Positions 18,814 to 28,019 of a DNA stretch of 64,000 nt are shown one piece after another. The position numbers and the translations under genes were made by a program. The notes under the pieces are model-generated. The model made no database searches and was not told the origin of the DNA. It saw only the letters and a list, made by a program, of their open reading frames with translations. The stretch comes from Spirochaetales bacterium (lineage in GTDB: Bacteria; Spirochaetota; Leptospiria; Leptospirales; Leptonemataceae), in NCBI GenBank assembly GCA_015075425.1, contig JABTUL010000001.1:496001-560000 (forward strand). The letters are read 5' to 3'. Every line of letters begins with the position of its first letter. Within the stretch, counting starts at the first letter, position 1.

Positions 18814-19770
18814 TTACCAGCTTCCGGAAGCACCACCCCCGCCAAAGCTTCCGCCACCGCCACTGTATGAGCCGCTGGATGAACTCGAGCTGCTCGATGA
18901 AGAACTGGAACTGGAAGAATAAGATCCGCTTGAACTGCTTGAAGAGTAACTGCTGGAACTTCCCGAGGAACTGTAGGACCCACCGGAGCCGCCTTCTTTG
19001 ATGATAGCAATGAGACCCAGAAGAAGGGTAATGCCCAGCCAGTAGATGGGGATGACAATCAGTGCTGGCCAGAAGTAGTCCGACCAGAAAGCAAGGGCAG
19101 TGATGGGGAATCCATAGAGGAGCGCCGGTAAGAGGTAGGCAAGGCCGGTGAAGTCCAGTAGCAGCAGGACCAGGCCCAGAACAACACAAACACCTATCCA
19201 GACATAGGAGAAAGTGGAGAATAGATCGCGCAACCGGTAGTGCTCCTGCTCCGCGAGGGATTCTTTTTCTGTGGCTTCCCTTTCTACATCCATGGGTAAT
19301 GGTTCTTTGCGGATCGCTGCCATGATAGCCGCTACTCCGGCATCGATCCCTTTTTCCATTTGCCCGGCGCGAAACTGCGGCACAATCGCTTCCTCGATAA
19401 TTTGCTTGCAGCGGGCATCCGGCAGAACACCTTCCAGCCCGTAGCCTACTTCTATTCGCAATTTACGATCATCGCGGGCAACCAGGAGGATCACGCCATC
19501 GTCTTTGCCCCGCCGCCCCACCTGCCAGGCCTCAGCCAGACGCATGCTGTAGGCTTCAATGGCTTCAGCCCCGGTTGTACCCAGAACAACCACGACGACT
19601 TCCGCTCCGGTCTCCTTCTGGAAGCTCGCCAGTTGCCCGGCCAGCTTTTCTTGGTAGTCGGCGCTCAGTGTATTTGTCTGGTCCACCACTCGACCCACGG
19701 GCGGCAGATTTTGGGAAAGCAGGGGCAGGCAGGTCAGTGCAATAAAGATCAGGGCAGAGCGGAGAGACAT
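18814..19770 (-). CDS. TPM-domain membrane protein with Ser/Gly-rich tail
   Basis: A 318-residue protein. It has a signal peptide (MSLRSALIFIALTCLPLLSQ), then a TPM_phosphatase/YgcG domain (VVDQTNTLSADYQEKLAGQL; GAEVVVVVLGTTGAEAIEAY; LRIEVGYGLEGVLPDARC). Two or three membrane helices follow around residues 190-260, and then a tail of almost pure serine, tyrosine and glycine ending SFGGGGASGSW. The Gly/Ser tail and final W are typical of YgcG-like proteins. Bacterial TPM domains have been linked to phosphatase activity or photosystem/respiratory complex repair; the role here is open. It is divergent from the SPFH gene across 82 bases. Confidence 0.88.
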   Translation of the reverse strand: MSLRSALIFIALTCLPLLSQNLPPVGRVVDQTNTLSADYQEKLAGQLASFQKETGAEVVVVVLGTTGAEAIEAYSMRLAEAWQVGRRGKDDGVILLVARDDRKLRIEVGYGLEGVLPDARCKQIIEEAIVPQFRAGQMEKGIDAGVAAIMAAIRKEPLPMDVEREATEKESLAEQEHYRLRDLFSTFSYVWIGVCVVLGLVLLLLDFTGLAYLLPALLYGFPITALAFWSDYFWPALIVIPIYWLGITLLLGLIAIIKEGGSGGSYSSSGSSSSYSSSSSSGSYSSSSSSSSSSSSSSSGSYSGGGGSFGGGGASGSW

Positions 19771-19781
19771 GAGACTTGGTG

Positions 19782-19798
19782 GGCGGCTGCAGGCCGCC
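19782..19798. promoter_or_regulatory. Inverted repeat in divergent promoter region
   Basis: GGCGGC, loop TGCAG, GCCGCC: a perfect six-base inverted repeat between the divergent TPM and SPFH genes, just beyond the TPM start codon. It could be an operator or a 5' UTR hairpin of the TPM transcript. Only the symmetry is observed. Confidence 0.3.
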
Positions 19799-19852
19799 GT
19801 CGACAACTTTTGAAAGACTTGACCGCGAGTCTCCCTGGCGGAAAGTCCTCTC

Positions 19853-20923
19853 ATGCTGGGCATTCGCTTTATCAAGACCAAACCCACCGATTATGTGCTG
19901 CTGTACAAGCGGGGACGGATCCGGGCCCGCGGCAATGGACTGAGTTTCTGGTACTATGAACCAACGACTTCCCTGGTTGTGGTCCCGGCCGATAGTCGGG
20001 ATATTCCTTTTATTTTTAAAGATATTTCAGCCGATTTTCAGGAAATCAACATTCAGGGTCAGTTGACCTACTGTGTGCAGGAGCCGGAAAAGCTGGCCGC
20101 CCTTCTGGATTTCACCATTGATAGTGCGGGCAAACCTCTGGGCGATGGTGTGGAGAAACTTGCAGCCCGCCTGACTAACCTTATCCAGGTGGTTTTGCGC
20201 GAGAAACTACAGAATATGGATCTGGCTGCGGCTCTATCTTCATCGCGAGAGCTGGTAGCCTTTGCTACGGAAAGGTTACAGAAACTCGATGCGGTCATGG
20301 CCATGGGGCTTTCCATTCTCGATTTTTCCCTGACCCGTCTATCGCCCACCCCGGATATGGCCAGGGCTCTGGAGTCCGGTACCCGGGAAAAATTACTGCA
20401 ATCAGCAGATCAAGCCATCTATGAAAGAAGAAATTTTGCTGTGGAGCAGGAAAGGCTCATTAAAGAAAACGAATTGCGAACGGCCATCGCCGTGGAGGAA
20501 AAGAACCGTCAGATTCGCGAAGAACAGATGAACATCGAAATTGCTGTAGCCGAAAAACAAGCGCTCTTAATGAAAAAGCAGCTGGAGGCGCAGGCGGAGG
20601 AAGCACGTCAGCAGGCTGCCATCCAGAGACAAAAATTGATGGATGCCATTGAGCGCGAAGCGGAACGCAAGAGGCTTGTGGATGCGGAAGCCCTCAATCA
20701 GTCGGTTCTTTCGCAGGCGCGTGCGGACAGCATGCGAAAGGAGCTGGGTGCCCTGCGTGAAATTCCGCTGGATATACTGGGTGTGCTGGCAGCCAACCAG
20801 ATGGATTCTCGTGATTTCGTGAGCAAGGCCTTTGCTGATCTGGCAAAGAATGCGCAAAAAATCGGAACGCTCAACATCACTCCGGATCTGTTGCATTCCC
20901 TGATGGAATCCGATCGTGCCTGA
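19853..20923 (+). CDS. SPFH/band 7 protein without obvious membrane anchor
   Basis: A 356-residue protein. The SPFH domain begins almost at the N-terminus (TDYVLLYKRGRIRARGNG, then SRDIPFIFKDISADFQEI) and includes a LREKLQNMDL segment. A long Glu/Ala/Arg-rich coiled coil follows at about residues 180-300. There is no hydrophobic N-terminal helix, unlike stomatin, so it may bind membrane peripherally. GGAAAG precedes the start. The stop overlaps the next start (ATGG/TGA), coupling it to an NAD-kinase-like protein. It is divergent from the TPM gene. Confidence 0.9.
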   Translation: MLGIRFIKTKPTDYVLLYKRGRIRARGNGLSFWYYEPTTSLVVVPADSRDIPFIFKDISADFQEINIQGQLTYCVQEPEKLAALLDFTIDSAGKPLGDGVEKLAARLTNLIQVVLREKLQNMDLAAALSSSRELVAFATERLQKLDAVMAMGLSILDFSLTRLSPTPDMARALESGTREKLLQSADQAIYERRNFAVEQERLIKENELRTAIAVEEKNRQIREEQMNIEIAVAEKQALLMKKQLEAQAEEARQQAAIQRQKLMDAIEREAERKRLVDAEALNQSVLSQARADSMRKELGALREIPLDILGVLAANQMDSRDFVSKAFADLAKNAQKIGTLNITPDLLHSLMESDRA

Positions 20924-22621: not shown

Positions 22622-23872
22622 ATGTATCTCAAAAGTTTCATGCGTTCCGGTCTGGCGCTGGCCATCATGGTCATAGCCCCGACCACCCTTATGGCGGGCA
22701 AATGTTTCGTGTTTGTACACGGGCACAGAACTGCCAAACCAACACATACACAAATTTACAATGGCCAGGTGGACAACTGCTGTGGCGACGATTCCAGCTA
22801 CTGGTTTGTAGATGGTTCGCTTTCCAATAGCGATTTCATTGGCGATGGCAGCATCGTCGGTGCCGTCACTCCCTACAGCCAGACCGATTCTACCAAGAAT
22901 CGTTACTTTGTTGTGGCCTGGAATCCCCTCAACTACTACTGGGTCGGTGCTGTCGAAGTGGCCCATCAGATCAACAGGGCACTGGCCGGTGGCTCAGCCA
23001 ATGGCGATGGTCGTGGCAAGTATTGTCTGGCAACAGACGATGTGTACATCGTTTCGCATAGCATGGGCGGTCCCACCACGGACTACGTCCTGGGCAACGG
23101 TGCCACAACAGATCCTAACTATAACTATTGCACCACAACAAGTGGCTGGGTAATGGGACCGGGATACAATGATGAAACGGTCAATCCGGGTTTCGATGCC
23201 GATACCACCAACAATAAGTACTGTGGGAACTTTTCCGCTATCCGTAACAATACCCGGCTGAAACGACATATTTCATTGCAGGGTGCTCATCGCGGCACAG
23301 AAGTGGCCAACGCGATCTGCGGTGTTGGTCCCTATGATGGCGCAGCTTCCGTGATGGCCTGGCTTGTCGGCATGTTCTCGAGCACCACCTGCGATAATGG
23401 AACCATGTCACTGACAACTGGCTACTCTTCCCATCAGTACCTCAATTCGCCGTCCAAAACCACGCGCCTCATTGTCGGCTATGAAGCGATCGTGGGACCC
23501 AGCGCTTCCCTTTGCGGTGAAGACGATGGCGTTCTGGAGTATGGCAGCACTCTGGCCTCGAACACGGCGGACATCACTTCCACCTGCTTCAATACCACCA
23601 GCCTGCCGCTCAATACGGCCAAGATGGAATCGGCAGGGATTGCTAACTGCGACCAGTCTCATGAAGATCATGACGAAGGACGCAACGGCAATGATAAAGA
23701 TTCGCGCAAAGCCACAAAGGGCGGCAATACGCTGGGCTCCTGCTGGTCCGGCGATCCGGCCCATGGCACTACAGTGCGGTCGTCCATGAGTTCTGCTCAG
23801 ATGGTTCGCTGTGCCTTTGGCGATGGGGTTTGTGCCGGTTCTGGATCTTACAGCCTGAACTCGGCTCGCTAA
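22622..23872 (+). CDS. Secreted lipase/esterase-like serine hydrolase 1
   Basis: A 416-residue exported protein. The signal peptide is MYLKSFMRSGLALAIMVIAP with cleavage near LMAGK. The mature enzyme opens with a strand and His-Gly oxyanion loop (CFVFVHGH, about residues 28-35). The nucleophile elbow is VSHSMGG with Ser147. A later GEDDGVLEYGS could supply the acid residue and DQSHEDHDEG the histidine. At least a dozen cysteines, including an adjacent pair, point to disulfides. It resembles triacylglycerol-lipase-like alpha/beta hydrolases. It is closely related in layout to the hydrolase at 25228. Confidence 0.83.
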   Translation: MYLKSFMRSGLALAIMVIAPTTLMAGKCFVFVHGHRTAKPTHTQIYNGQVDNCCGDDSSYWFVDGSLSNSDFIGDGSIVGAVTPYSQTDSTKNRYFVVAWNPLNYYWVGAVEVAHQINRALAGGSANGDGRGKYCLATDDVYIVSHSMGGPTTDYVLGNGATTDPNYNYCTTTSGWVMGPGYNDETVNPGFDADTTNNKYCGNFSAIRNNTRLKRHISLQGAHRGTEVANAICGVGPYDGAASVMAWLVGMFSSTTCDNGTMSLTTGYSSHQYLNSPSKTTRLIVGYEAIVGPSASLCGEDDGVLEYGSTLASNTADITSTCFNTTSLPLNTAKMESAGIANCDQSHEDHDEGRNGNDKDSRKATKGGNTLGSCWSGDPAHGTTVRSSMSSAQMVRCAFGDGVCAGSGSYSLNSAR

Positions 23873-23896
23873 GAAAAAGAAAAAAATTCAGCTGAT

Positions 23897-23925
23897 AAAA
23901 GGCGCACATTTGTGCGCCTTTTTTT
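23897..23925 (+). terminator. Strong intrinsic terminator after lipase 1
   Basis: AAAAGGCGCACA, loop TT, TGTGCGCCTTTT followed by further T: a perfect twelve-base-pair stem and U-tract. It lies between the lipase and its anchored partner, only 35 bases before the partner's start, so it should strongly reduce readthrough. Confidence 0.88.
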
Positions 23926-23959
23926 ATAGCACGACGGTCTGCTGAAAAAGGAAAACTGC

Positions 23960-25081
23960 ATGAATGCAAATAATCGCAATATTTTCTTGATGGGGGCTGT
24001 CCTCGCCCTTGTTCTCATCATTGTACTGGTCTATGTGGTCTGGCCGCAGTCAGAAGAAGAGAAGCGCGCTGAAAGTGAAAAAATAGAAAAGGAACTGCGC
24101 GCAGAACATGGAGTGACAGAGTTTGAAGACGAAGAAGTCGATTCCGTGAATGCCGCCATCAATCCGCGCGCCATTGAACTGGCAGAGGCCGCCGACTATC
24201 GCGAGCGGGCCCGCTGGCCCGAATTCGCCTATCCAATCATCGAGGGCAACGATCCGCTGGCCAATGAGTTGACTGTCGGGAAGTCCGCGCGGCGGATCAA
24301 AGACAACCCTTACATCATGGTTCACTATCTGGACCAGTATCACTTTCGGCCTGATGAACCGATTGTCATCCACGCATACCTTCTTGATTCCAAAAACGAA
24401 AAGGTGCCTTTTCATGGTATCCAGGCTGTCCTCACCGAGCGTGGCGTGGAGTCGAAGGTCTTTGATTCTCGCGACATGAAGGACGATGGCGGCCAGGATG
24501 ACACGGCCGGGGATTTGATCTACACGGCAGCCCTGACCCTGCCAGGAGATCGCCGCGGCCCGGACGTTTCTCCGCATGGCTACCCGGTGATGATCCGGGC
24601 AACAACGCCGCGCGGCCCCATGGGGGCCATGCAGCTCGCTCACGTAGGCTGGCTCAACTTAAAACACACGGGGAAATTTTCCGATCGCCTGGTTACCGAT
24701 GCCCGGGGCAATCATCTGGAGGTCACCACCGAGTTTACCGTAGAAAAATGGGGCAACTACCATGTTCAGGCAAGCGTTTATGCTGCTGACGGAACGGCCA
24801 TCGGCTGGGCCCAGAACCGGGTGGCTCTGGCTGCCGGAACCCACCCCGTGTCCCTTACTTTCTACGGGCTCATGTTCTGTGAGAAGAAGATCCCCGGTCC
24901 CTATATGCTGCGGAATTTTGCCTATTCCAACGTATCGGAGATGCCCAACGTGCGCTCCAATCTGATCAACCCCGGCTATTCGACAGCGGCCTACCCCTAC
25001 ACGGAATTTAGCTGCCAGGGTTACGGTGATCCTACCTTCACCCGAATGGCTGAAGAAATGGAAAAGGGATCCGGGCAGTAA
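23960..25081 (+). CDS. Membrane-anchored lipase-partner protein P1
   Basis: A 373-residue protein. A short cytoplasmic N-terminus and one membrane helix (FLMGAVLALVLIIVLVYVVW, about residues 9-28) lead to a charged helical linker. After this comes an Ig-like domain with DDGGQDDTAGDLIYTAAL, resembling choice-of-anchor-X type domains. The C-terminal beta domain is WGNYHVQASVYAADG...LAAGTHPVSLTFYG...GPYMLRNF. That C-terminal domain is shared with the products at 26174 and 27333. Topology and position after a lipase resemble lipase-specific foldases, but no Lif motif is visible. AAGGA precedes the start. Confidence 0.75.
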   Translation: MNANNRNIFLMGAVLALVLIIVLVYVVWPQSEEEKRAESEKIEKELRAEHGVTEFEDEEVDSVNAAINPRAIELAEAADYRERARWPEFAYPIIEGNDPLANELTVGKSARRIKDNPYIMVHYLDQYHFRPDEPIVIHAYLLDSKNEKVPFHGIQAVLTERGVESKVFDSRDMKDDGGQDDTAGDLIYTAALTLPGDRRGPDVSPHGYPVMIRATTPRGPMGAMQLAHVGWLNLKHTGKFSDRLVTDARGNHLEVTTEFTVEKWGNYHVQASVYAADGTAIGWAQNRVALAAGTHPVSLTFYGLMFCEKKIPGPYMLRNFAYSNVSEMPNVRSNLINPGYSTAAYPYTEFSCQGYGDPTFTRMAEEMEKGSGQ

Positions 25082-25128
25082 ATGGAATGCCCTGGTGCGC
25101 TCTTTGTAGCCCGGGCCCGGCCGGGTAA

Positions 25129-25149
25129 AAAAAAGCCGACTGTTGGCTT
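25129..25149. promoter_or_regulatory. Inverted repeat overlapping the lipase 2 promoter
   Basis: AAGCC, spacer GACTGTT, GGCTT: an imperfectly short inverted repeat whose right arm runs into the TTGACA hexamer. It is placed where a repressor could block the -35 element. No equivalent left arm is present upstream of lipase 1. Confidence 0.3.
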
Positions 25150-25176
25150 GACAACAGAAAACAGGACTGCGATAGT
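25148..25176 (+). promoter_or_regulatory. Sigma-70-type promoter of lipase 2
   Basis: TTGACA (25148-25153), 17-base spacer, GATAGT (25171-25176; four of six match TATAAT), 80 bases before the ATG. The -35 lies in the 11-mer TTGGCTTGACA also found upstream of lipase 1. Confidence 0.6.
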
Positions 25177-25227
25177 GTCCCGTCTGCCTGCGGGCAGTCA
25201 TGCGAAAATCTATTGGGGGTAAAACTT

Positions 25228-26100
25228 ATGAAAAAACTGGCCCTTCTGGCAGCCATGGCGCTGTCCTTCAGCCAGATCTCCGCTGTGACTACGATTTATG
25301 TTCACGGCTTCCATTTTTCCGTTCAGAAAACGGAAACAGCAAAGAATTGTCAGGGTGCCACTACCTGTACCAGCTACTGGGGACAGCAGGATAATAGCAC
25401 ACCGGTCGTTTTTGTGGGCTATGACGGACGATTTGATCCAACTGTTTTTAATTCGGATCGCGGCGTTCCACGCCTGCTTTCCATGCTCAATACCTACTGC
25501 CGCCGCGATCAGGGCAAGTCCTGCCGCATTGTGAACCATTCCATGGGTGGCCTGGTGAGCGGATACACGATAGCCAAATACAACCGCACAGGAACCTACA
25601 ATATTCACTATGTGTCTTCCCTGGTTTCCGCTGAAGGTGGCTCTGAACTGGCCAACATTGGTTCGCCCGTGCTGCAAACACTCAATGCCATTACCCTGGG
25701 GCTTTCTAACTATTTTCTGAACTTCCCGGACGCGGTTCGCATCCTGCGCACCAGCGCTGCTCGTGGATCTTACGATCACAATGCCAGCAACGGAACTCCC
25801 TTCTACCACATTGCCGGAAACACTCCTTTTCCCTGGTATCTGGGCTTTGTGAACTGGGTATTTCCTGGCCGTCATGACACCGTAGTAGCCATGCACACTA
25901 CCTGCAGCTACAGGGAGATCAAAGATTACTCGCGCTGCGGTGGAGAGAGCATTACTACCGGGGCCCTGTGGTGGAAGAAAACTACCAAATACTACACGCA
26001 CAGTAACCATCATGCCCATCCGCGTCATTCAGCCGGCGGCGTGAACGTAAAGCATCTGGAATTTCCGAACGTAAGCAGCATGGTCAAATCCAGTCTGTAA
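25228..26100 (+). CDS. Secreted lipase/esterase-like serine hydrolase 2
   Basis: A 290-residue exported protein. The signal peptide is MKKLALLAAMALSFSQISA. The mature part begins VTTIYVHGFHF (oxyanion strand/loop) and has the nucleophile elbow IVNHSMGGLVSG with Ser105. RHDTVVAMH lies in the C-terminal third and a histidine cluster is near the end. Cysteines at CQGATTC, TYC and KSC suggest disulfides. It is shorter than the hydrolase at 22622 but follows the same plan. GGGGGT precedes the ATG. It probably hydrolyses lipids or esters outside the cytoplasm and feeds fatty acids to beta-oxidation. Confidence 0.83.
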   Translation: MKKLALLAAMALSFSQISAVTTIYVHGFHFSVQKTETAKNCQGATTCTSYWGQQDNSTPVVFVGYDGRFDPTVFNSDRGVPRLLSMLNTYCRRDQGKSCRIVNHSMGGLVSGYTIAKYNRTGTYNIHYVSSLVSAEGGSELANIGSPVLQTLNAITLGLSNYFLNFPDAVRILRTSAARGSYDHNASNGTPFYHIAGNTPFPWYLGFVNWVFPGRHDTVVAMHTTCSYREIKDYSRCGGESITTGALWWKKTTKYYTHSNHHAHPRHSAGGVNVKHLEFPNVSSMVKSSL

Positions 26101-26128
26101 TCGGAAGAACCGGAAAGATTGATTTTGG

Positions 26129-26159
26129 AAGAGCGAAGCTGCGAGGCTTCGCTCTTTTT
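26129..26159 (+). terminator. Intrinsic terminator after lipase 2
   Basis: AAGAGCGAAGC, loop TGCGAG, GCTTCGCTCTT then TTT: an eleven-base-pair stem and U-tract. As after lipase 1, it lies between the hydrolase gene and its anchored partner, ending fifteen bases before the partner's start. Confidence 0.85.
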
Positions 26160-26173
26160 GTAAGAGGCGAATT

Positions 26174-27349
26174 GTGAATAAAAAGACCATCCTGTCGATT
26201 GCCCTGGGCGTTGTGCTTCTCATCGGGGCCTTCATCGTTTACCTGCTGGTCGCAGGCACAGATCCCGAGATCGAGAAAATGCGAGAAGGGGCGGAAGGCC
26301 AGTTTGATGATCCCACCCAGCAGCTGGAGGAATTTGCAGCCGGCGGGTTTCGCATTACCTATGAGACTGTGTTAAAGGACTACCAGAACTGGTCGCGCTA
26401 TCCGCCGGATTCACGGCCCCTCCGTCCTGAATACCGTGATGAGATCCAGCACCAAATCATTGAATTGCCCTTCACTCCCATGCCGCTCATTGATGCGGAA
26501 GGGAAACCGGTGGAGGGGACTCACCGCTGTAGACTGCAACCCCTGGAGCACACCGTTGTGGAGGGCAAAAGAATGGAAGTGCAACTGGTCTGTGAAAATA
26601 TCCAGAGCAACCAGCCGGTGGCAACTTCTGTGAGTGAACTCAGCCTTGTACGCTATCTTGATACGCAGACCTGGCAGGTTCCCACGCCAGAAGTGGAAGC
26701 CGGCACAGCAGCCAACCAGCAGGTTACCCGCATACTCTATACGCCGCGACGGGAAGATTGGGGCAACATGGATCTTTCTGTAAAATTTACCATTCCGGGA
26801 GAAAAGCCCGCCTTCACCCACGAACTCAAGGTGCATTTCTTTTCTTCTCCTGTGGCCCCGGCGTATTTCACCGGGACCGTTCAGGAACGTCTTGCGGACG
26901 GCTCTCTGGTTCTACCGGTCGAGGTAGACGTGAAGATTCCCGGACGTTATGAGATTCAGGGTAATCTCTTCACCGCAGAAGATAAACCCATTGCCCGGGC
27001 CCGTGCTGCCGTAAAGCTCGGAACCGGCCGTCATTTTGTTGACCTCAGCTTCTTTGGTAAACTTTTTCACGATTCCGGACATTCGGGTCCTTACGTTTTA
27101 AAGGGGCTGCGGGGAATTCAGGATACCGATGCCCTGGATCCGGAGCTTCTGAAGGGCCCTCCAGAAGAAGTAGAGCGATTGCTGAATACTTTGCGAACTA
27201 CGGAGCCGGATCGTCGGGTGATTCCCACCTGGCCGGAAAAATACACCACGCAGGCCTACAAGCTTTCTGATTTTTCGGATCGAGAATACGACTCGGAGTT
27301 CAAGCGAGAACGCATTGAGGAGCTTAAGAAACTTGCAGAGTCCGATTAG
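26174..27349 (+). CDS. Membrane-anchored lipase-partner protein P2
   Basis: A 391-residue protein with an N-terminal membrane helix (ILSIALGVVLLIGAFIVYLL, about residues 6-25). A linker carries the motif YQNWSRYPPDSRPLRPEYRD, followed by a middle beta domain. The shared C-terminal domain is PGRYEIQGNLFTAED...LGTGRHFVDLSFFG...SGPYVLKGL, ending YKLSDFSDREYDSEFKRERI. It is paralogous to P1 (23960) and P3 (27333). A GTG start has GAGG six bases upstream. It probably acts on or with the hydrolase encoded before it, in the periplasm. Confidence 0.75.
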   Translation: MNKKTILSIALGVVLLIGAFIVYLLVAGTDPEIEKMREGAEGQFDDPTQQLEEFAAGGFRITYETVLKDYQNWSRYPPDSRPLRPEYRDEIQHQIIELPFTPMPLIDAEGKPVEGTHRCRLQPLEHTVVEGKRMEVQLVCENIQSNQPVATSVSELSLVRYLDTQTWQVPTPEVEAGTAANQQVTRILYTPRREDWGNMDLSVKFTIPGEKPAFTHELKVHFFSSPVAPAYFTGTVQERLADGSLVLPVEVDVKIPGRYEIQGNLFTAEDKPIARARAAVKLGTGRHFVDLSFFGKLFHDSGHSGPYVLKGLRGIQDTDALDPELLKGPPEEVERLLNTLRTTEPDRRVIPTWPEKYTTQAYKLSDFSDREYDSEFKRERIEELKKLAESD

Positions 27350-28019
27350 GATAGTTCTTGTCCTGATTTTGTGGCACTGTCAGGAGCGCCCCTTGCAGAT
27401 TCAACATGAAGATACAGCGGTTGACCCGCGCACGCGCCTCGCGCACTATCTTGAGTACAGCGAGTATCCACCTCATTCGCAACCGGCCAATGCGCTTACC
27501 GGAGACCTGGGCGACCTGCTCCCCTCCAGGTATGATGCCAGTGATTCCGGACGGATTACCGGCTGGGACGGAGAGGCTTTGCGTGCTGGCTCCTTGCGTA
27601 TAGGCTATCGTGTGGCCATTGCCAGCGGCGGCCGTTACACTTTCGAGACACTGGTGTACGCGGACAGTAAGAAATTGATACACCCGTCCATGACTGTGGA
27701 CCTTTCCGTTGGTGAGCATCGCCTGGAGTTTGAGCTGGCCGGCCGTCTTCTGCGCAAAAGTTCATCAGGCAGCCCCTTTGAATTGCCCGGCATTGTTGCA
27801 GAACGCGTCCCGAGCGATTCCGAGCTGGAAGCCATGGCCTCCGGCAGACAAGCTTCACCGGAAGGTCGGCTGACCCCGTACCGCAAAGAGTACCGGACGG
27901 GGAGCTACAAAAGCGAGTCATTCAGCGATGCTATCTGGGACAGTCCGGAGAAGCGCCGCAAAATTGCCGGGCTTGAAGCGGAAATTCGCGAATGGGATTC
28001 TACCCGGGCCAAAGATTGA
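27333..28019 (+). CDS. Lipoprotein paralogue of the lipase partners, P3
   Basis: About 228 residues. MQSPIRIVLVLILWHCQERP is a lipoprotein signal with the modified cysteine near residue 16. The mature part has the YPPHSQPANALTGDL motif seen in P2 and the shared C-terminal domain (GGRYTFETLVYAD...LSVGEHRLEFELAG). The end is YKSESFSDAIWDSPEKRRKI, matching the P2 tail. It lacks the middle Ig-like domain. A TTG at 27333 has GAGGAG ten bases upstream; a TTG at 27315 is the alternative. It overlaps the P2 gene by 17 bases, so the two are coupled. Confidence 0.72.
   Translation: MQSPIRIVLVLILWHCQERPLQIQHEDTAVDPRTRLAHYLEYSEYPPHSQPANALTGDLGDLLPSRYDASDSGRITGWDGEALRAGSLRIGYRVAIASGGRYTFETLVYADSKKLIHPSMTVDLSVGEHRLEFELAGRLLRKSSSGSPFELPGIVAERVPSDSELEAMASGRQASPEGRLTPYRKEYRTGSYKSESFSDAIWDSPEKRRKIAGLEAEIREWDSTRAKD

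Follow-up and report, generated by a model that had tools for sequence, protein, structure and literature searches.

Membrane-anchored helpers dedicated to a secreted enzyme are already known. The defining features of the LipB/CpaB class of chaperones of the type II secretion system (T2SS) are an N-terminal transmembrane helix and a secreted client encoded next door (PMC4713064). The Lif foldases (LipB/LipH, PF03280) have a single N-terminal membrane anchor, a linker, and a periplasmic chaperone domain, which is helical and headphone-shaped; an RxxFDY motif is found in MD1 of Lif (PMC13381987). CpaB of Acinetobacter also has an N-terminal transmembrane helix and a gene adjoining that of its secreted client. 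It is described as containing an SRPBCC-like domain and serves one dedicated client, the metalloprotease CpaA (PMC4713064). Here, we describe paired genes for an exported α/β-hydrolase and an N-terminally anchored, β-rich partner in a Spirochaetales bacterium (GenBank assembly GCA_015075425.1). The window is a stretch of 64,000 nucleotides of its contig JABTUL010000001.1 (positions 496,001 to 560,000), and the locus covers positions 22622-28019 of the window. The pairing is obligate and crosses lineages, in several phyla. The partner probably belongs to a hitherto undescribed helper system, in which it would serve secreted enzymes as a dedicated chaperone or escort. No publication on the hydrolase-partner pair was found in a literature search, whose coverage leaves out most subscription journals.

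Five + strand genes span the locus, namely a hydrolase (H1), a partner (P1), a second hydrolase (H2), a second partner (P2), and a short partner-like gene (P3). The first-pass annotation of this DNA had described a hydrolase, a terminator, and an anchored partner occurring twice in tandem, with a third partner-like gene last; the genes, their order, and the hairpins are as described.

22622..23872, + strand: H1, predicted exported Cys-rich α/β-hydrolase, a divergent family member; 416 amino acids (alternative start at 22640)
23901..23925, + strand: predicted intrinsic terminator in the H1-P1 spacer, GGCGCAC-ATTT-GTGCGCC followed by a T-run
23960..25081, + strand: P1, predicted N-terminally anchored, β-rich partner of H1; 373 amino acids; weak PF20943 match
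25228..26100, + strand: H2, predicted exported α/β-hydrolase; 290 amino acids; conserved S105, D217, and H276; Cys 91, 99, 226, and 237
26131..26159, + strand: predicted intrinsic terminator in the H2-P2 spacer, GAGCGAAGC-TGCGAG-GCTTCGCTC followed by a T-run
26174..27349, + strand: P2, predicted N-terminal membrane anchor, linker, two β-domains, and a conserved C-terminal tail; 391 amino acids; GTG start; the second β-domain matches DUF4785_3rd
27315..28019, + strand: P3, short partner with the second β-domain and the tail only, behind an N-terminal signal sequence; 234 amino acids; TTG start

Both full-length partners are longer than the Lif-like length of about 340 residues given in that annotation. 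H1 was assigned to the family by its match to the A1 profile, which has H1 itself among its members. The nearest relatives of H1 were found in three genomes (G003, G015, and G004), together with P1-like partners. The start of P3 overlaps the end of P2 by 35 nucleotides. The region 22622-28019 had no match in the Rfam comparison, and the sigma-70 promoter scan gave chance level only.

Searches with either protein identified seven hydrolases, six full-length partners, and one short partner in the source genome (G000; 4.13 Mb, four contigs), all of them adjacent at five loci. A sample of 48 genomes of the class Leptospirae was also searched, and hydrolase matches were found in 33 and partner matches in 32 of them. 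The sole hydrolase-only genome (G045) has a hydrolase that is cut by the contig end. A hydrolase lies within 2 kb of 67 of the 80 partner matches in the class; the hydrolase gene comes first in 46 cases and the partner gene in 13, while three pairs are convergent and five are divergent. Linkage in all orientations indicates more than a fixed operon order. By our own estimate, such closeness would arise by chance for <1% of the partners when a 4-Mb genome contains three or four hydrolases. The other 13 partners have no hydrolase within 2 kb; six of them lie close to the end of a contig, and the remaining seven are genuinely separate. The first-pass annotation had proposed a dedicated companion of the hydrolase, and partners regularly found away from hydrolase genes were to speak against it. 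They are not regularly found there, and the proposal is upheld in the source genome, in the class, and beyond. Arrays of at least three hydrolase genes with a single partner gene were observed on four contigs (G013:C17, G016:C34, G027:C206, and G020:C4, with some of the genes broken in G020). An apparent hydrolase-partner fusion in G012:C279 (an open frame of 826 amino acids) was rejected, since the frame reads through a stop into a dihydroorotate-dehydrogenase-like gene. A scan of the genome contigs with P1 as a single protein found nothing.

The same pairing was found in other lineages. Among the 296 Spirochaetota genomes surveyed, the partner occurs outside the class in one distant genus only, where a hydrolase adjoins it in all five genomes. 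Genome contigs were scanned with a 12-row alignment of the hydrolases, which revealed remote hydrolases in Myxococcota, 'Deltaproteobacteria', and two Ideonella species, as well as in unclassified metagenome-assembled genomes. The partner profile identified a partner next door at nearly all of these hydrolases, mostly with E values of 1e-37 to 1e-61 (weaker in L321 and L322). Whole-genome searches with this profile found the partner in 17 of the 17 non-spirochaete genomes reached via the hydrolase, giving 19 partners. A hydrolase is present in the short flank at 17 of these 19 partner loci; the other two have little flanking sequence. By eye, the anchor, a YPPxSRPL-like motif, and the C-terminal tail are kept in the non-spirochaete partners. 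The system is therefore not confined to spirochaetes, contrary to the inference in the first-pass annotation.

The pairs are inherited one-to-one. The hydrolase and partner distance matrices of 54 pairs gave r=0.885, against a mean r of 0.16 and a maximum of 0.42 when the partners were permuted within genomes (n=5000), with the species history kept. The nearest neighbours were concordant for 35 of the 54 pairs, compared with 11 on average under permutation. Wherever a genome has a paired hydrolase, its hydrolases without a nearby partner are close paralogues of the paired one (52-96% identity), which fits one helper serving several enzymes. Pseudomonas LipB, with the distant LipC, has been listed as such a case of one helper with several clients (PMC4713064). 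It is also conceivable that the hydrolase and the partner act in one process without contact, the partner for example binding the substrate or product of the hydrolase at the membrane. Linkage in all orientations would fit a shared function without a complex, and a third gene, for a lipoprotein, accompanies some of the pairs. However, the trees are congruent pair by pair even among the paralogues within a genome, which goes beyond what a shared substrate would demand, and we consider this explanation improbable.

The order of hydrolase, terminator, and partner exceeds chance in the class. A hairpin with a T-run is present in 23 of the 33 hydrolase-to-partner spacers, where 0.04 would be expected from mononucleotide shuffles. 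These terminators suggest that more hydrolase than partner is probably produced in the Leptospirae, an imbalance that would be better suited to a helper used repeatedly than to an inhibitor or anchor needed in stoichiometric amounts. An inhibitor or immunity protein in the periplasm might shield the cell's own envelope until the hydrolase is exported. A toxin-immunity system would account equally well for the obligate co-occurrence and for the congruence of the pairs, and paralogous pairs are numerous in some genomes. However, with a terminator directly behind most hydrolase genes of the class, a stoichiometric inhibitor would be in short supply, and many hydrolase genes stand alone or share one partner. 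Moreover, a partner without any hydrolase in the genome was not seen, and a defence-system library search gave no match to known defence families. An inhibitory role is thus judged unlikely. A retention anchor or stable subunit, by which the hydrolase would be kept at the inner membrane as a periplasmic complex and never secreted, meets similar difficulties. The N-terminal anchor is typical of full-length partners, β-sandwich domains often bind proteins, and P3 could be a soluble version; however, the terminators imply unequal dosage in the Leptospirae, and three hydrolase genes per partner occur at several loci. The enzymes are also Cys-rich and resemble secreted lipases. Retention therefore seems quite unlikely.

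Both hydrolases have signal-peptide-like starts and contain an HSMGG sequence, which agrees with the Ser elbow noted in the first-pass annotation. In the alignment of 78 hydrolases, conservation was seen for S105, D217, and the late H276 of H2 (the His in 74 of the 78 sequences), and these residues might form the catalytic triad. Four cysteines (91, 99, 226, and 237 of H2) are also conserved and likely form disulfides. Single-sequence searches of the PDB gave no match. The hydrolase profile matched PlaB of Legionella (6zth; E=8e-7) and the lipases of Burkholderia, Chromobacterium, and Pseudomonas glumae (4e-6 to 1e-5), and most of these matches span the N-terminal half. The H2 model (pLDDT 89.4) has fold matches to the same lipases, including the foldase-bound structures 2es4 and 9g8u, with TM scores of about 0.4-0.5. 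PlaB and the Burkholderia and P. glumae lipases are thus top profile matches and among the top fold matches; unlike them, the hydrolases have their own conserved Cys pattern, and the similarity is at E of about 1e-6 and a TM score of about 0.45. Profile-profile comparison with LipA of the class gave an E value of 2.5e-14 over 149 columns. The hydrolases are remote but significant relatives of the Lif-dependent lipases, and they may be active lipases. These secreted Cys-rich hydrolases carry no confident family annotation. Close to their N termini, four deltaproteobacterial hydrolases (L319, L326, L331, and L333) contain a domain rich in Cys, which matches Somatomedin_B in L333 (E=6e-8), and YSGGD replaces HSxGG in the same proteins.

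P1 and P2 both open with a markedly hydrophobic helix, which a charged linker joins to the β-domains. The N-terminal hydropathy peak has a median of 2.9 near residue 6 in 64 full-length partners, none of which has a second such helix. The P2 model (pLDDT 94.4, pTM 0.86) is β-rich, with a helix at residues 3-27. The best fold match of the partner model is 4kh9, the DUF4785 protein lpg0956 (E=1.7e-9, 209 columns, TM score 0.39-0.42), followed by assorted Ig-like proteins. No match of the partner profile to PDB sequences was significant; the top one was again 4kh9 (E=0.02). Of 62 partners, 35 have a match to the third domain of DUF4785 (PF20943) with E≤0.01. P2 lies over the curated cut-off (32.6 vs 24.5 bits, E=9e-8), and P1 and P3 lie below it. 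The other DUF4785 domains were matched in no partner examined (P1-P3 and the 62 members). The protein lpg0956, or NttD of Legionella pneumophila, which has been listed as a novel T2SS substrate (PMC6617341), was the only relevant result of a literature search on DUF4785. The second β-domain of the partner resembles NttD by its match to PF20943 and by the top fold match. Unlike the secreted NttD, the partner is predicted to be membrane-anchored and is paired with a hydrolase, and the alignment covers only 209 columns. The choice-of-anchor X model (NF041940), which is short and has no assigned function, was matched above its cut-off by the Ideonella partner, over a 26-residue motif only, and below it by one deltaproteobacterial partner; a search of the window partners gave no match. 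Literature searches on choice-of-anchor X, and on Leptospira with foldase, gave nothing useful. The DUF4785 third domain and choice-of-anchor X were the only families matched, neither of them with a function that contradicts the helper idea of the first-pass annotation.

The partner resembles Lif in its single N-terminal membrane anchor, linker, and domain of predicted periplasmic placement. It is also encoded beside a secreted enzyme of the lipase superfamily, remotely homologous to LipA, in a genome with a type II secretin. Unlike the helical Lif domain, however, its fold is predicted to be β. PF03280 gave no match on P1-P3 and the 62 partners, and the RxxFDY motif is present in none of these 62. 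The profile-profile alignment of the partner with Lif is limited to 27 anchor columns, and Lif is not among the listed fold matches of the partner model. The partner was therefore rejected as a Lif on profile, motif, profile-profile comparison, and predicted fold, which extends the earlier remark that no Lif-type motif is visible. A true LipA-Lif pair is found elsewhere in the source genome (G000:C2, L260, 2834-3970 and 4090-5145), so that both systems operate side by side on related enzymes in one genome. PF03280 finds Lif over its cut-off in 32 of the 48 class genomes, the source genome included; the family, which Pfam labels as proteobacterial, is nevertheless common in this class. The partner also resembles CpaB in having an N-terminal transmembrane helix, a gene adjoining that of its secreted client, and one dedicated client. 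The client of CpaB is a metalloprotease, however, and its domain is SRPBCC-like, whereas the partner is DUF4785-like; CpaB was set apart on its description.

Both features of the LipB/CpaB class, a single predicted N-terminal helix and a gene adjoining the client, are present here. GspD, the type II secretin, is over its cut-off in the source genome and in 41 of the 48 class genomes; its presence is not discriminating, because it also occurs in genomes without the pair. The helix, the neighbouring client, and GspD together make a chaperone or escort the best-supported account. It seems somewhat probable that the partner is a membrane-anchored chaperone or escort, which readies each hydrolase in the periplasm for type II secretion. 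The Sec system would export each hydrolase into the periplasm. The cognate partner would be anchored in the inner membrane through its N-terminal helix and expose its β-domains on the periplasmic side. The partner may then bind the newly exported hydrolase, help it to reach the native state, and release it for type II secretion. It would work like Lif or CpaB, on a different, DUF4785-like scaffold of two β-domains. The basis of this proposal is the obligate pairing, the congruent trees, the client superfamily, the predicted partner fold, which differs from that of Lif, and the type II secretin in the genome. Several points weigh against it. The seven separate partner loci mentioned above are in G022 (twice), G023, G028, G031, G012:C9 (2.5 kb from a hydrolase), and G018:C96 (8.6 kb). 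Tree congruence can arise from linkage alone and is no proof of contact, because linked genes share their history. NttD itself is no chaperone but one of the substrates that the T2SS secretes (PMC6617341). In the pairs outside Spirochaetota, the reading frame of the partner opens at the hydrolase stop or close to it, with little room for a terminator, and the dosage argument therefore cannot be extended there.

P3 had been called a lipoprotein, a label which is not supported. Orthologues of P3 follow P2 orthologues in five genomes (G003, G015, G011, G032, and G046); most of them have a cleavable-looking signal peptide and no conserved Cys, and a lipobox is present in one (G011). A lipoprotein gene of about 300 amino acids, with CNxLFW after the lipobox, was observed at other loci, either separating hydrolase and partner or following the partner (L009:4605-5600, L117:3425-4354, and L007:7351-8253). 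It was seen in pair loci of G000 and G003 and, by spacing, is probably also present in G015 and G018. The loci of the window are without it. This protein may be a third component of the pair system. The gene in the 1-kb gaps of some pair loci was considered as a hydrolase remnant, which was rejected, as it encodes the lipoprotein. Elsewhere in the window, the - strand encodes at 18814-19887 a membrane protein whose long low-complexity tail is rich in Ser and Gly; judged by eye, the protein seems TPM-domain-like.

In summary, the scaffold has not been described for the role of an anchored helper in the literature searched. The partners might represent a third class of dedicated membrane-anchored foldase, with Ig-like/DUF4785-type β-domains, unrelated to Lif and CpaB, and present in several phyla; it would act alongside LipA-Lif within one cell, on a sister branch of the enzyme superfamily. 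This broader proposal is tentative, with a little less than an even chance of being correct. If true, a third unrelated anchored chaperone for relatives of the same lipases would point to repeated evolution on different scaffolds, and one genome would offer two chaperone solutions for side-by-side comparison. The pairing also provides a rule for finding and producing secreted Cys-rich hydrolases without confident annotation, which might be helpful for production because such hydrolases may need their partner for activity.

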